Part shown: one piece after another, positions 60,080 to 64,000 of the stretch | How the letters are laid out: each line of letters begins with the position of its first letter | How positions within the stretch are numbered: position 1 is the stretch's first letter | Assembly: GCF_014837145.1 (NCBI RefSeq) | Contig: NZ_JACYFS010000008.1 | Span: 1 to 64,000 of the forward strand | From: Chryseobacterium caseinilyticum | GTDB taxonomy: Bacteria > Bacteroidota > Bacteroidia > Flavobacteriales > Weeksellaceae | Length of the DNA: 64,000 nt | Reading direction: 5' to 3' | The notes under the pieces: generated by a model | The model's input: only the letters and a program-made list of their open reading frames with translations | Database searches by the model: none | What the model was told of the DNA's origin: nothing | Made by a program: the position numbers and the translations under genes

Positions 60080-61576
60080 ATGATTCTGAAAAAATCTTTT
60101 CACATAAAAGTATTATTACTCTTCATGTTTCTGCTATGCATTTCGTGCAGTGACCCTCAGAAAGAGAGTGACAAAAAAATAGATTCGCTGATTCAAAAAG
60201 CACACAATGGTATGGTCACTTTAGAATATTTAAAGACGATAAAATACGCTAAAGAAGCAGAATCTATTGCCTTAAAAACGAATAACAAAAAAAAACTGCC
60301 TTACATTTATTTAGAATTGGCTCATGGTTTTTCCTCTCTGGAGTTTCAAAAAGAGAGCATTACTTATCTCAACAAAATAATAACGTTTGATTTCGATAAA
60401 AAACCAAAAGAATTCAAAGCCAGAGTGAACCATATTTACTCCTGGAATTATATGGAACTTGGTCTAGGTAAACAGGCGTTGGAATATAACAGAAAAAATG
60501 TTCTTTTACTTAAAAACAGTAAAGATTCGGTAGAACTAAAACATTTGGCCCAAACCTATGAGGACATAGCATTTCACTATTACGCGGAAGAAATTACGGA
60601 TTCTTCTTTCTACTATTTTAAGAAACAGGAAAATATTCTCAGGAAATTTCCGGAAAAAGAAACGTTCTTAAGCAATGCCACCATTTACAGTATTAAAGGA
60701 TATCTCTTTTTAGAACAGAAGAAACAGAAAGATTCTGCCAGGTTATATTTCCAAAAGGCTCTTGCACTAAGAAAAAAATACAATGACAATTATCTGGACC
60801 GTGAATATTTAGGTTTGGGTGAATGTAGTTTTTTGGAAGGTGACTATAATAAAGCATTAGAATATTATTTGAAAGCCGAAAAAAACATACAAGAAAAGAA
60901 TGCTGAATTTAATGAAAACAATGACATTAACCAAGTATTGGCAAAGGTATATGAAGCACTGAACGATACAGAAAAGCAAACCTATTACTTAAAAAAAAAT
61001 AAGCAGTTTAACGACAGCTTAAAAGTTGCCCACAAACAAAATACAGATGAAGCAGTAAGCTTAATGATGAACAAAAAAACGGAAGAAAACACTTCCGTTA
61101 AGAAGAATTATACAGCCTTATTAATTGTAATATTGGTTGCCCTTTCAGTAACAGGAATTTTTATCTACAGATATTTTAAAAAAAGAAAAATAGATTCTGA
61201 CAAAACGGAAGAACTCCTCGTAGAAAAAGAAATTCTGCTTTCTCAGAAAGAAGAAGAAACACAGGATCTCAGACAAAAAGTAAACGAATCTTTTGAAGAA
61301 GTAGTACAGCTGGCCAAAGACAACAGCCCTGAGTTTTTTACCCGTTTCACAGAGGTTTATCCCGATGTTGTATCCAAATTACTGGAGAAGGATTCCCGAC
61401 TCCGTGTAACAGAACTGACATTATGCGCTTACTTTTACTTAGGATTTACCTCAAAAGATGTGGCTTTGTACACCTTTAAAGCTGTGAATACCGTAAGAAA
61501 CCGCAGACAGAATTTAAGAAACAAATTCGATATCCCTGCTGACAAAAACATGGAATTGTGGCTGAAGAATCTGTAA
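60080..61576 (+). CDS. Membrane-tethered TPR protein with C-terminal helix-turn-helix
   Basis: The 498 residues have an N-terminal hydrophobic segment with a lipobox-like end (LLCISC). TPR-type helices span about 40-320 (QALEYNRKNVLLLKNS, KALEYYLKAEKNIQ), then a membrane span at about 343-365. A coiled coil (EKEILLSQKEEETQDLRQK) and a LuxR-like DNA-binding end follow (VTELTLCAYFYLGFTSKDVA, KAVNTVRNRRQNLRNKF). The TPR part would be outside and the HTH inside, fitting a signal-sensing regulator. It lies between the surface-protein genes and the polysaccharide genes and could control either. Confidence 0.78.
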   Translation: MILKKSFHIKVLLLFMFLLCISCSDPQKESDKKIDSLIQKAHNGMVTLEYLKTIKYAKEAESIALKTNNKKKLPYIYLELAHGFSSLEFQKESITYLNKIITFDFDKKPKEFKARVNHIYSWNYMELGLGKQALEYNRKNVLLLKNSKDSVELKHLAQTYEDIAFHYYAEEITDSSFYYFKKQENILRKFPEKETFLSNATIYSIKGYLFLEQKKQKDSARLYFQKALALRKKYNDNYLDREYLGLGECSFLEGDYNKALEYYLKAEKNIQEKNAEFNENNDINQVLAKVYEALNDTEKQTYYLKKNKQFNDSLKVAHKQNTDEAVSLMMNKKTEENTSVKKNYTALLIVILVALSVTGIFIYRYFKKRKIDSDKTEELLVEKEILLSQKEEETQDLRQKVNESFEEVVQLAKDNSPEFFTRFTEVYPDVVSKLLEKDSRLRVTELTLCAYFYLGFTSKDVALYTFKAVNTVRNRRQNLRNKFDIPADKNMELWLKNL

Positions 61577-61596
61577 AACATCTGATACTTTTTAAA

Positions 61597-61629
61597 CTGA
61601 AAACTTCAACAGATTGAAACAGTTTTCAG
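61597..61629 (+). other. Stem-loop between the regulator and ugd
   Basis: The outer stem ctgaaaact / agttttcag and the inner ttcaa / ttgaa close around caga, with a two-base bulge. No T-run follows, so a terminator role is doubtful. Confidence 0.5.
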
Positions 61630-61692
61630 ACAGATAACCAATCTTCCATATCAACTTACTGTTAATTTAAAAGACTATGAAAGTATTTTTAG

Positions 61693-61700
61693 TATTTTTG
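61693..61700 (+). promoter_or_regulatory. -7 box before ugd
   Basis: TATTTTTG matches TAnnTTTG and ends 25 bases before the TTG start of ugd. No -33 TTG was found at proper distance. Confidence 0.4.
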
Positions 61701-61725
61701 TCAAAATTTATTAAAACATACAATT

Positions 61726-63054
61726 TTGAATATTACGATAGTAGGAACGGGGTATGTAGGTTTGGTTACCGGAACCACACTTGCAGAACTGGGAAACTCG
61801 GTGTACTGTGTAGATATCGATGAAAAGAAAGTAGAAGGCATGAAGCAGGGCATTGTCCCGATCTATGAGCCGAATCTTGAAGAAATGTTCCTCAGAAACA
61901 TACAGTCAGAAAGACTGTTTTTTACTACAAATCTTAAGGAAGCTTTGGATAAAAGCGAGGTTATATATCTCGCATTGCCTACTCCGCCTGGTGAAGACGG
62001 ATCTGCAGATCTTTCCTACGTTCTGAAAGTTGCCAATGATATTGGTGAAATGATGACGGAATATAAAGTTATCGTAAATAAAAGTACCGTTCCCGTTGGT
62101 ACTGCAGACAAAGTAAGAGAAACTATTTCTGCAAAAACCAATATCAGCTTTGATGTAGTATCCAACCCTGAATTTTTACGCGAAGGTTTTGCTGTAGAAG
62201 ATTCTATGAACCCTGCAAGAGTGGTTGTAGGAGCAAGTTCAGAAAAAGCAAAAGATATTATGGCTCAAATCTACCAGCCATTTACCAATACCGGAATTCC
62301 TATTATATTTATGGATGAGAAATCATCTGAATTAACGAAATATGCATCCAACTCATTTTTAGCGGTAAAAATCACGTTTATGAACGAGATTGCCAACTAC
62401 TGTGAAAAAGTGGGTGCCGATGTCGATAAAGTGAGACTTGGCATGGGCAGCGACGACAGAATCGGCCACCGTTTCCTTTTCCCAGGAATCGGATATGGCG
62501 GAAGCTGTTTTCCTAAGGATGTTAAAGCTTTAATTAAATCAGGAAAAGATGACGGATTTAATTTCCAGATTTTAGAGGCTACCGAAAATGTAAACACTTC
62601 TCAGAAAGTAATTCTGGTATCTGAAATTGAAAAATATTTCAGAGGAAACCTTGAAGGAAAGAAAATTGCGGTGTGGGGACTTGCATTTAAAGCCAACACA
62701 GACGACATCAGAGAAGCTTCTTCTTTAGACAATATAAAACTTCTTCTTGAGAAAGGTGCACAAATCGTTGCATACGATCTTATTGCTGAAGAAAATGTAA
62801 GAAAACTTTTAGGCGACAAAATATCCTACGCCAATACCATGTATGATGCACTGGAAGGCGCAGACGCATTATTTATCGCAACAGAATGGCCAGAATTTAA
62901 AAATCCGAATTTTGAGATGATGGCTAAAAAAATGAACGGTAAAGCGATATTTGATGGCAGAAACATGTTCCCGCTGGAAATTCCTGAGCAGAATGGATTT
63001 TTCTATAAATCTATAGGAAGGAAAACTGTTTTGCGAGAGCCAGAGCAAAAGTAA
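61726..63054 (+). CDS. ugd: UDP-glucose 6-dehydrogenase (TTG start)
   Basis: The enzyme oxidises UDP-glucose to UDP-glucuronate with two NAD+, supplying acidic sugar for capsule or exopolysaccharide. The first codon is TTG; starting there gives the complete Rossmann motif NITIVGTGYVGLVTG, and no ATG precedes it. The 442 residues include VNKSTVPVGT, SNPEFLREG and the active loop GYGGSCFPKDVKAL with Cys261. The last residues (REPEQK) are encoded by the first copy of a direct repeat that continues downstream, so the native end may have been changed. Confidence 0.94.
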   Translation: MNITIVGTGYVGLVTGTTLAELGNSVYCVDIDEKKVEGMKQGIVPIYEPNLEEMFLRNIQSERLFFTTNLKEALDKSEVIYLALPTPPGEDGSADLSYVLKVANDIGEMMTEYKVIVNKSTVPVGTADKVRETISAKTNISFDVVSNPEFLREGFAVEDSMNPARVVVGASSEKAKDIMAQIYQPFTNTGIPIIFMDEKSSELTKYASNSFLAVKITFMNEIANYCEKVGADVDKVRLGMGSDDRIGHRFLFPGIGYGGSCFPKDVKALIKSGKDDGFNFQILEATENVNTSQKVILVSEIEKYFRGNLEGKKIAVWGLAFKANTDDIREASSLDNIKLLLEKGAQIVAYDLIAEENVRKLLGDKISYANTMYDALEGADALFIATEWPEFKNPNFEMMAKKMNGKAIFDGRNMFPLEIPEQNGFFYKSIGRKTVLREPEQK

Positions 63055-63102
63055 GAAGAGTCATTCAGAAGAGCCAGGGTAAAAGTAAAAAGAGCCAGGT
63101 GC
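63037..63102 (+). repeat. 24-bp direct repeats overlapping the ugd 3' end
   Basis: The 24-mers at 63037-63060 and 63071-63094 share gagccag..., aaaagtaa and aagag blocks (three mismatches). A partial third copy, gagccaggtg, begins at 63093. The first copy contains the ugd stop codon. Confidence 0.8.
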
Positions 63103-63118
63103 GAATGAACTGGTTTGA

Positions 63119-63320
63119 TACCGGAAACCGGAAGTTTGGAATCGACGAAGGGTTTCAATCTTAATATCTGCAGGTGAAACCTGTGGTAATTGACAAAAAA
63201 AATATTCAGAACCCGATAGGGTTCAACAATAATAACCATGGATGAAACCATGGATGAAGTACAAAAACAAGTCGGAACCCGGCAGGGTTCAATATGAATA
63301 ACTGCAGCTGAAATCTGCAG
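63119..63320. repeat. Array of about 66-bp units built from covarying hairpins
   Basis: Two hairpin types alternate. Type A: GAACCC-gata-GGGTTC (63209-63224) and GAACCC-ggca-GGGTTC (63275-63290), with a half-copy gggtttc at 63150. Type B: CCGG-aaa-CCGG (63121), CAGGT-gaa-ACCTG (63171), CCATGG-atgaaa-CCATGG (63236) and CTGCAG-ctgaaat-CTGCAG (63302). The starts of A are 66 apart and of B 65-66 apart. Stem bases of B change between units while pairing is kept, and a gaa/gaaa core is kept in the loop. Confidence 0.85.
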
Positions 63321-63336
63321 GAAATGCATAAACACT

Positions 63337-64000
63337 ATGAAAAACATTATCATCACCGGAGGTGCCGGTTTCATTGGTTCACACGTTGTTCGTGAATTTG
63401 TAAAAAACAATCCGGATTCTAAAATCATCAATCTTGATGCGCTGACCTATGCCGGAAATTTAGAAAATCTAAAAGACATCGAAAACGAACCCAATTATGT
63501 TTTCGAAAAAGCAGATATCACCAAACCTGAAGAATTAAGAAAGGTTTTTGAAAAATACAATCCTGATGCTGTGGTGCATTTAGCCGCTGAATCTCATGTT
63601 GACAGAAGCATCACAGATCCCAATGCATTCATCAATACGAATGTGAACGGAACTGCAAACCTGCTGAATCTTTGTATCGAATTCTGGACTTTAAACCCGG
63701 ATCACACGCACGGAAGATTTCCAAATGAGCCAAGAAAAAACTTATTTTACCACGTTTCCACAGATGAAGTGTATGGAAGTTTAGGGGAGACAGGCTTCTT
63801 TCTTGAAACAACGCCTTACGATCCGCAATCTCCTTATTCTGCATCAAAAGCTGCTTCAGACCACTTGGTAAGAGCTTATGGAAATACTTATGGAATGCCG
63901 TTCATCCTATCCAACTGTTCAAACAATTATGGGCCGAACCATTTCCCTGAGAAGTTGATCCCACTTTGCATTTCAAATATCATCAATGAAAAACCATTAC
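63337..64000 (+). CDS. rfbB: dTDP-glucose 4,6-dehydratase, partial (runs off the window)
   Basis: The enzyme turns dTDP-glucose into dTDP-4-keto-6-deoxyglucose, the second step to dTDP-rhamnose. ATG 63337 opens a frame with no stop to the window end (221 codons seen of about 360). The Rossmann motif [12 protein letters not shown], then [12 protein letters not shown], the [10 protein letters not shown] motif with the catalytic Asp-Glu pair, and [12 protein letters not shown] (YxxxK) are all present. An insertion [13 protein letters not shown]-like region is normal. It follows ugd after the hairpin array, as part of a polysaccharide cluster continuing to the right. Confidence 0.95.

Follow-up and report, generated by a model that had tools for sequence, protein, structure and literature searches.

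The hairpin array between ugd and rfbB in Chryseobacterium caseinilyticum is probably a locally amplified, head-to-tail copy of a REP-like two-hairpin element whose enzyme is a HUH/Y1 transposase (TnpA) of subclass 1.2, single-copy and vertically inherited. Together, the two-hairpin repeat and its resident transposase point to a genomic repeat system that is widespread and, it appears, has not been described before. The anatomy of the array, the dispersal of its units, the linked gene with its inverted flanking elements, the polarity and matched stems of these elements, and the presence or absence of arrays at individual loci were all read directly from the data.

Results

Anatomy of the array

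The window, which is the 64,000-nt stretch of contig NZ_JACYFS010000008.1 analyzed here, contains in positions 63139-63320 three units, each made of a hairpin A, an 11-nt linker and a hairpin B. The features of the region are as follows.

61726-63054, + strand: ugd, nucleotide sugar dehydrogenase (UDP-glucose 6-dehydrogenase); TIGR03026, 450 bits, cut-off 189.8
63121-63131, + strand: hairpin CCGGAAACCGG, possibly a decayed B (unit 0); from reading of the sequence, no match to covariance model R1
63139-63156, + strand: A1, decayed A hairpin; 3' arm GGGTTTC retained, 5' arm degenerate
63157-63167, + strand: linker AATCTTAATAT, 11 nt; offset and pattern as in the genus unit set
63168-63186, + strand: B1 hairpin, CTGCAGGT-GAA-ACCTGTGG; sequence and covariance model
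63209-63224, + strand: A2 hairpin, GAACCC-GATA-GGGTTC; sequence and covariance model
63225-63235, + strand: linker AACAATAATAA, 11 nt; sequence and covariance model
63236-63253, + strand: B2 hairpin, CCATGGATGAAACCATGG; covariance model
63254-63274, + strand: inter-unit spacer; from reading of the sequence
63275-63290, + strand: A3 hairpin, GAACCC-GGCA-GGGTTC; sequence and covariance model
63291-63301, + strand: linker AATATGAATAA, 11 nt; sequence and covariance model
63302-63320, + strand: B3 hairpin, CTGCAGCTGAAATCTGCAG; 16 bp 5' of the rfbB start codon
63337-64000, + strand: rfbB, dTDP-glucose 4,6-dehydratase, 5' part, leaving the window; TIGR01181 (see below)

The best NCBIfam match of rfbB is TIGR01181, with 280.8 bits on the truncated frame, the cut-off of 365.1 applying to the whole protein. 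Unit spacing is regular, at 70 bp from A1 to A2, 66 bp from A2 to A3, 68 bp from B1 to B2 and 66 bp from B2 to B3. The R1 match at 63145-63186 spans the 3' part of A1 together with B1. Neither an A partner nor a linker was found near the CCGGAAACCGG hairpin at 63121-63131, which may be a decayed unit.

As + strand RNA, the 282-nt region 63055-63336 has a fold z-score of -4.8 that none of 200 shuffles equaled, and as - strand RNA its fold is weaker (z -1.8, equaled by 10 of 200 shuffles). The core at 63139-63320 gave z-scores of -5.2 as + strand RNA and, as DNA, of -4.7 for the + strand and -5.0 for the - strand, each with 0 of 200 shuffles reaching the value. A preliminary description of this DNA had proposed an array of alternating A and B hairpins, and this array is real, with three units and a fold beyond that of shuffled sequence; the GAACCC/GGGTTC stem ascribed there to type A is kept by A2 and A3 only, A1 having decayed. 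A search of 61000-64000 against Rfam 15 with E up to 1 matched no known structured RNA family. No intrinsic terminator was found on the coding strand of the array, and four weak terminator-like sites lie on the minus strand only.

Two further hairpin or repeat elements were seen in the window. A second dispersed repeat, AAGAGCCARG..AAAAGTAAAA..AAGAGCC, occupies 63036-63097, overlapping the 3' end of ugd; its pattern has 12 exact matches in the C. caseinilyticum genome against 0 for a reversed control, and by eye several inspected copies lie directly 3' of stop codons. Judging from the sequence, this repeat appears to have altered the C-terminus of ugd relative to that of its relatives. At 199-271, a hairpin pair (minus strand CACTCCGTAGGAGTGCTATCTGTGTAG) resembles hairpins of another TnpA clade (loci L121-L123) and is the fourth R1 match in the window, a weak one (E 0.027).

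Hairpin grammar, loops and pairing

Hairpins were compared across the genus and at 79 named loci, the latter being the best matches listed to a Chryseobacterium-centered query (seven are Chryseobacterium; many are MAGs, some possibly misbinned). Hairpins at these loci split into two kinds, C-closed (A) and T-closed (B). Where a C-closed hairpin is followed by a T-closed neighbor, the gap measures 11-15 nt in 23 of 26 named-locus cases and 35 of 36 genus cases, and TA[AG]C immediately precedes B or opens it in all 26 named cases, which were chosen regardless of linker. Genes with both kinds number only 26 of 79 at the named loci and 30 of 50 in the genus, and the neighbor pairs at named loci comprise 32 CC, 12 TT, 26 CT and 18 TC; with both kinds in a minority of the named genes and same-kind neighbors frequent, part of the clades may therefore use one kind.

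Among 199 A hairpins of the genus, selected for a perfect GAAC/GAAT stem with AA after it, 185 have GNA or GNNA loops. PMC4686876 attributes extraordinary stability to DNA minihairpins with such loops, a stability bonus that is absent from the ViennaRNA DNA parameters, under which a GNA loop gets no advantage. Pairing in B, assessed on units chosen by A and linker alone, was 67.8%, whereas shuffles averaged 59.1 and peaked at 62.1; likewise, 99 of 144 A regions chosen by the linker form a flawless stem of 6 bp, and permutation gave 28.5 on average and 41 at most. The fold is thus conserved while the stem changes, as the preliminary description had held, and the stem diversity that it regarded as unusual is instead the rule in this two-hairpin family. 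Covariation counts on alignment A3 are too high, its units having been picked for pairing.

Strand marking through G-T wobbles in B was considered and dropped, the minus strand pairing equally well, and GTRG within many B stems was rejected as a hidden REP foot, as it co-changes with its partner. At the foot of the hairpins, GTRG occurs in 12 of 196 and CGTC in none. The A/B arrays inspected run head to tail, and an inverted-pair form is known for clade 3 hairpins in genome G078, where an element with ends ATTAACAGGTCGC...GCGACCTGTTAAT lies at two unrelated places (L278 and L279) with interiors about 76% alike; it is possibly a non-autonomous element of the clade 3 TnpA.

A family dispersed in the genome and the genus

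A similarity search of the C. caseinilyticum genome with window positions 63050-63340 found arrays like that of the window at several loci. For model R1, 25 of 30 candidate units were used; the candidates came from 16 loci outside Chryseobacterium in four phyla as named in the records and had been pre-selected for pairing, loop and TA[AG]C. Although it contains other genera only, R1 ranks the three units of the array first to third in the 64-kb window, with rough E-values of 7e-9, 2e-6 and 2e-4. In the whole genome it gave at least 30 matches at E<1e-3, with 150 of 570 candidates scored; R1 counts per genome are lower bounds throughout.

Co-occurrence with TnpA was counted in 148 genomes of the genus, with TnpA fragments and one broken copy included and phylogeny ignored. 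All 36 genomes with a clade 1 or 2 TnpA have R1 matches (median at least 12.5, minimum 2), and unit copy number in carriers is low, at 2 to 37. R1 matches were also found in at least 46 of the 112 genomes lacking a TnpA of these clades (median 0, maximum 10), and this persistence of units counts against our preferred explanation; among genomes without any subclass 1.2 match, at least 6 of 27 have them, at most 4 each. The plain GAACCC hairpin pattern was present in 33 of the 36 carriers versus 18 of the 112 other genomes. A strict correspondence of GAACCC with clade 1 and GAACCA with clade 2 was rejected, as either clade has both types.

Lacking a TnpA of clades 2 and 4, the C. caseinilyticum genome itself nonetheless has GAACCA-type arrays and hairpins of the clade 4 type. 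The clade-4-type A/B units at L286 and L287 (GCCCTGAAAGGGC) are possibly orphans left after enzyme loss. Two observations on individual arrays may be recorded here: by eye, an extended variant resembling B, its core similar to TGAAATCGAGGMACGRGATTCGGC, lies in or before several arrays (L091, L089, L102, L021), and the array at L094 1278-1366, minus strand, is near a TPP riboswitch (Rfam RF00059, 70.9 bits).

The transposase gene

A genome search found one IS200-like HUH/Y1 transposase gene only (147 aa) in C. caseinilyticum, and this sole copy is flanked by arrays: an (A-B)n array ends about 20 bp 5' of the start codon, and an inverted A-B-A unit lies 3' of the gene. The protein matches Pfam Y1_Tnp at 1.5e-27. 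Its closest HMM is NF033573, IS200/IS605 transposase (77.3 bits, cut-off 55), its score against NF047646, REP_Tyr_transpos, is 31.6 bits and below the cut-off of 80, and the nearest solved proteins are the TnpA of ISDra2 and ISHp608. The Y motif in L002 reads YIKNQKEHH. Across eight aligned members (alignment A1), HUH and Y---Q--HH are invariant (Y114, Q118, H121, H122), and Y---Q--HH is present at 77 of the 79 named loci (best matches listed). Ratios of dN to dS for tnpA are 0.06-0.16 (six of seven ungapped comparisons computable, three with dS above 1), and on these sequence comparisons the gene is under purifying selection.

Genomes of the genus mostly have 1-5 TnpA matches. One genome, G012, has 14, far above its relatives. 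Where neighboring genes were compared (longest downstream frame, names assigned by eye), clade 1 tnpA precedes the same acetyl-CoA-synthetase-like gene in 17 of 18 fetched loci, clade 2 precedes carB in 12 of 12, clade 3 an acyltransferase gene in 6 of 6 and clade 4 metH in 6 of 6. In these loci, tnpA of each of clades 1-4 thus holds one chromosomal place. The eighteenth clade 1 locus, L024 in G139, has two full TnpA copies in tandem with an array before each. At eight loci outside clades 1 to 4 (L111-L114 and L121-L124), the downstream gene varies.

Polar, matched hairpins flank tnpA

In the flanks of 50 tnpA genes of the genus, 58 GNA-loop hairpins lie upstream on the coding strand and none on the opposite strand; downstream the counts are 11 and 81, respectively. 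These 11 belong to nine clade 2 genes, with sense units before carB, and two others. The downstream unit of clades 1 and 2 is inverted, so that it runs antisense to both tnpA and the gene that follows.

The same polarity extends to the 79 named loci (best matches listed), which are mostly from Bacteroidota and also from Verrucomicrobiota, Planctomycetota and others, with no cyanobacterium among these matches. Here GNA/GNNA hairpins number 107 on the coding and 13 on the opposite strand upstream, and 19 and 89 downstream, compared to 4.0 and 0.8 upstream and 2.6 and 1.8 downstream in shuffles. Counted by gene among these best matches, at least one upstream hairpin of this class occurs on the coding strand in 54 of 79 and on the opposite strand in 9 of 79 (25 of 79 have no upstream coding-strand GNA/GNNA hairpin), and at least one downstream hairpin in 13 of 79 and 55 of 79, respectively. 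The hairpins are concentrated near the gene: for the 52 named loci with full flanks, the four counts are 74, 8, 14 and 67 near the gene versus 4, 3, 6 and 3 in the far flanks. Of 42 genes with hairpins on both expected sides, 25 have an identical inner stem on both sides, whereas permuted partners reached 2.9 on average and 12 at most.

Presence, absence and orientation of arrays

The ugd gene adjoins rfbB in 28 of 30 loci examined (L055-L084, that of C. caseinilyticum included). Arrays lie between the two genes in G000, G115, G088 and G060, the last being the longest, and remnants are found in G067 and G094; the remaining 22 of the 28 loci have no array, their intergenic distance being at most 72 bp. 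Outside the 30 loci, G011 has a GAACCA-type array 5' of its rfbB (L231). Because it is missing at 22 of 28 loci, the array is no conserved signal of the ugd-rfbB operon; it is most likely a by-product that the operon tolerates and not a regulator that it needs. The earlier suggestion of a recoding or processing site in a polysaccharide transcript is unsupported for the same reason.

An allelic series was found at the SDR locus, which has no unit in G067 and G001, A-B in G139, A-B-A in G094 and A-B-A-B-A in G000 and G011. The exact insertion boundary could not be recovered there, as the flanks are too diverged, G060 is unalignable and G026 has other sequence, and among the loci compared no empty site is near enough to fix the boundary or target of an A/B array insertion. 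A one-unit copy difference at the L086 locus, guessed from match spacing, was disproved by alignment, which showed that the flank differs instead. Some arrays hold their place: arrays at argC persist in several species, with B stems changed yet pairing. Turnover is therefore slow or some arrays are useful.

Orientation was scored for 61 loci in 23 ortholog groups, with genes called by an open-frame rule and groups by flank similarity. In 17 groups the array lies in sense between co-directional genes, and the others comprise 2 antisense, 3 convergent and 1 mixed, giving a sense bias of 17 of 19 (p=7e-4). The next frame mostly begins within about 100 bp of a sense array. These features would also be expected if the hairpins served mainly as RNA, as sense mRNA stabilizing, processing or insulating elements under selection for which the transposase is merely the source. 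This reading, which also draws on the strong + strand RNA fold of 63139-63320 and on the persistence of pairing at argC, is unlikely in our view. The array is dispensable at most ugd-rfbB loci, the downstream unit of clades 1 and 2 is antisense to both of its neighbors, and in several phyla it is the transposase gene that the hairpins flank. The sense bias itself may reflect how the coding strand is exposed, or a loss of antisense copies: read on the minus strand, these resemble weak terminators, which would do harm within operons.

Replication slippage that tandemly duplicates a neutral palindromic spacer, without any enzyme, is less probable still as the whole explanation. Spacers are similar inside several arrays and different between arrays, and one array (L101) has two-unit duplications; local copying therefore occurs, and slippage may be how arrays lengthen once seeded. 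However, the copies dispersed over unrelated loci, the near-constant linker, the hairpin types shared across phyla and the stems matched to tnpA need more than slippage.

Discussion

A comparison of the present system with the REPtron, the pairing of REP/BIME repeats with TnpA_REP (RAYT), shows both a common organization and some significant differences. As in the REPtron, a Y1 HUH gene, usually in few copies and under purifying selection, has short hairpins on both flanks and more of them scattered between genes, and the hairpin types vary by enzyme clade. In contrast, TnpA_REP/RAYT (class 2) has Y---NP where the enzyme described here has Y---Q--HH. The GT[AG]G foot of canonical REPs is confined to the few hairpins counted above, and the repeats further differ from REPs in having two hairpins per unit, near-constant spacing, head-to-tail arrays and GNA/GNNA loops. 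BIMEs and REPINs are inverted REP pairs, unlike the A/B arrays inspected here. The preliminary description had likened the array to REP/BIME repeats, possibly spread by a TnpA-REP transposase. The likeness stands as far as a dispersed REP-like array with a Y1 transposase gene beside copies is concerned, and falls short in that the array has no GT[AG]G foot and runs head to tail, and in that the enzyme is of subclass 1.2 and not a RAYT.

The Y---Q--HH motif is given in the consulted part of PMC6006769 as the signature of TnpA_Y1 subclass 1.2, with which the genes found here also share low copy number and occurrence in Bacteroidetes. The same text places the subclass mostly in Cyanobacteria and Bacteroidetes, ascribes to it a specific conserved C-terminal domain, and reports it as generally lacking typical terminal IS200 structures; that part of the main text names no REP partner for it. 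Genes of this signature here have polar flanking hairpins. PMC6006769, in the same part, describes REPtron-like genes with non-GTAG hairpins and atypical secondary structures for class 3 and subclass 2.6, which resemble our system in this respect and, compared by motif alone, differ in the Y motif (Y----Q, with a CnGA foot, and YIH[QN]NP, respectively). No description of subclass 1.2 repeats was found in the open-licence literature searched; the supplement of PMC6006769 may list hairpins of the subclass. The consulted part of PMC11194056 reports RayT genes close to a resistance gene in Chryseobacterium and does not mention repeats, and that of PMC3733652 covers GTAG and CGTC repeats, whose foot is mostly absent from the hairpins described here.

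IS608 and ISDra2, of the IS200/IS605 family, have a homologous HUH/Y1 enzyme, and their substrate consists of hairpins in single-stranded DNA. They are mobile insertion sequences, in which (subclass 1.1) gene and ends move as a unit and occupy several sites, whereas clades 1 to 4 of the gene described here are fixed in the loci examined. That tnpA and its flanking hairpins form a normal IS200/IS605 insertion sequence, with the arrays as its decayed ends, is very improbable: the IS200/IS605 HMM is the closest, hairpins in inverted orientation bound the gene, G012 has its 14 protein matches and the downstream gene is variable outside clades 1 to 4, but in the loci examined clades 1 to 4 keep their downstream frame with a single exception, units recur without the gene, and IS608-type ends are not known to be inverted.

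In our preferred reading, the resident TnpA acts on A-B units exposed on one strand, and the matched stems, the polarity and the loop class support this. Weighing against it, besides the units in genomes lacking a clade 1 or 2 TnpA, are the GAACCA-type arrays and clade-4-type hairpins of C. caseinilyticum, the low copy numbers, the arrays that hold their place at argC, the many genes without both hairpin kinds or without an upstream coding-strand GNA/GNNA hairpin, the equal pairing of B on the minus strand, and the lack of a GNA-loop advantage under the ViennaRNA DNA parameters. HUH/Y1 enzymes of the IS200/IS605 family bind hairpins formed by single-stranded DNA and cleave next to them. By analogy, TnpA would recognize A and B as single-stranded DNA hairpins, the GNA/GNNA loop would mark the strand, and the enzyme would cut in or near the linker. 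We infer that A-B units are cleaved and mobile in this way; cutting would copy units to new sites and enlarge arrays, with spread or amplification taking place as single-stranded DNA, and arrays may lengthen by slippage after seeding, as their common spacers suggest.

More broadly, we lean, with some reserve, towards regarding the subclass 1.2 TnpA as the enzyme of a separate and ancient REP-like system present in at least four phyla. Its bipartite single-stranded DNA substrate would consist of a C-closed GNA hairpin, a linker ending near TAGCC, and a T-closed GNA/GNNA hairpin; the strand would be marked by loops rather than by a GTAG guide, the stem would co-evolve with the enzyme, and units would be spread or amplified in operons while the enzyme gene stays put, as it does in at least the four clades examined.

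The bipartite, polar and enzyme-matched hairpin set provides a testable candidate substrate for subclass 1.2 TnpA, to which the consulted part of PMC6006769 assigns none, and the system would add to that of the RAYTs another kind of REP system linked to an enzyme. This hairpin family may explain a class of dispersed palindromes in the intergenic regions of Bacteroidota. It also appears to show selection for GNA/GNNA loops in nature; such loops are familiar mainly from DNA chemistry.
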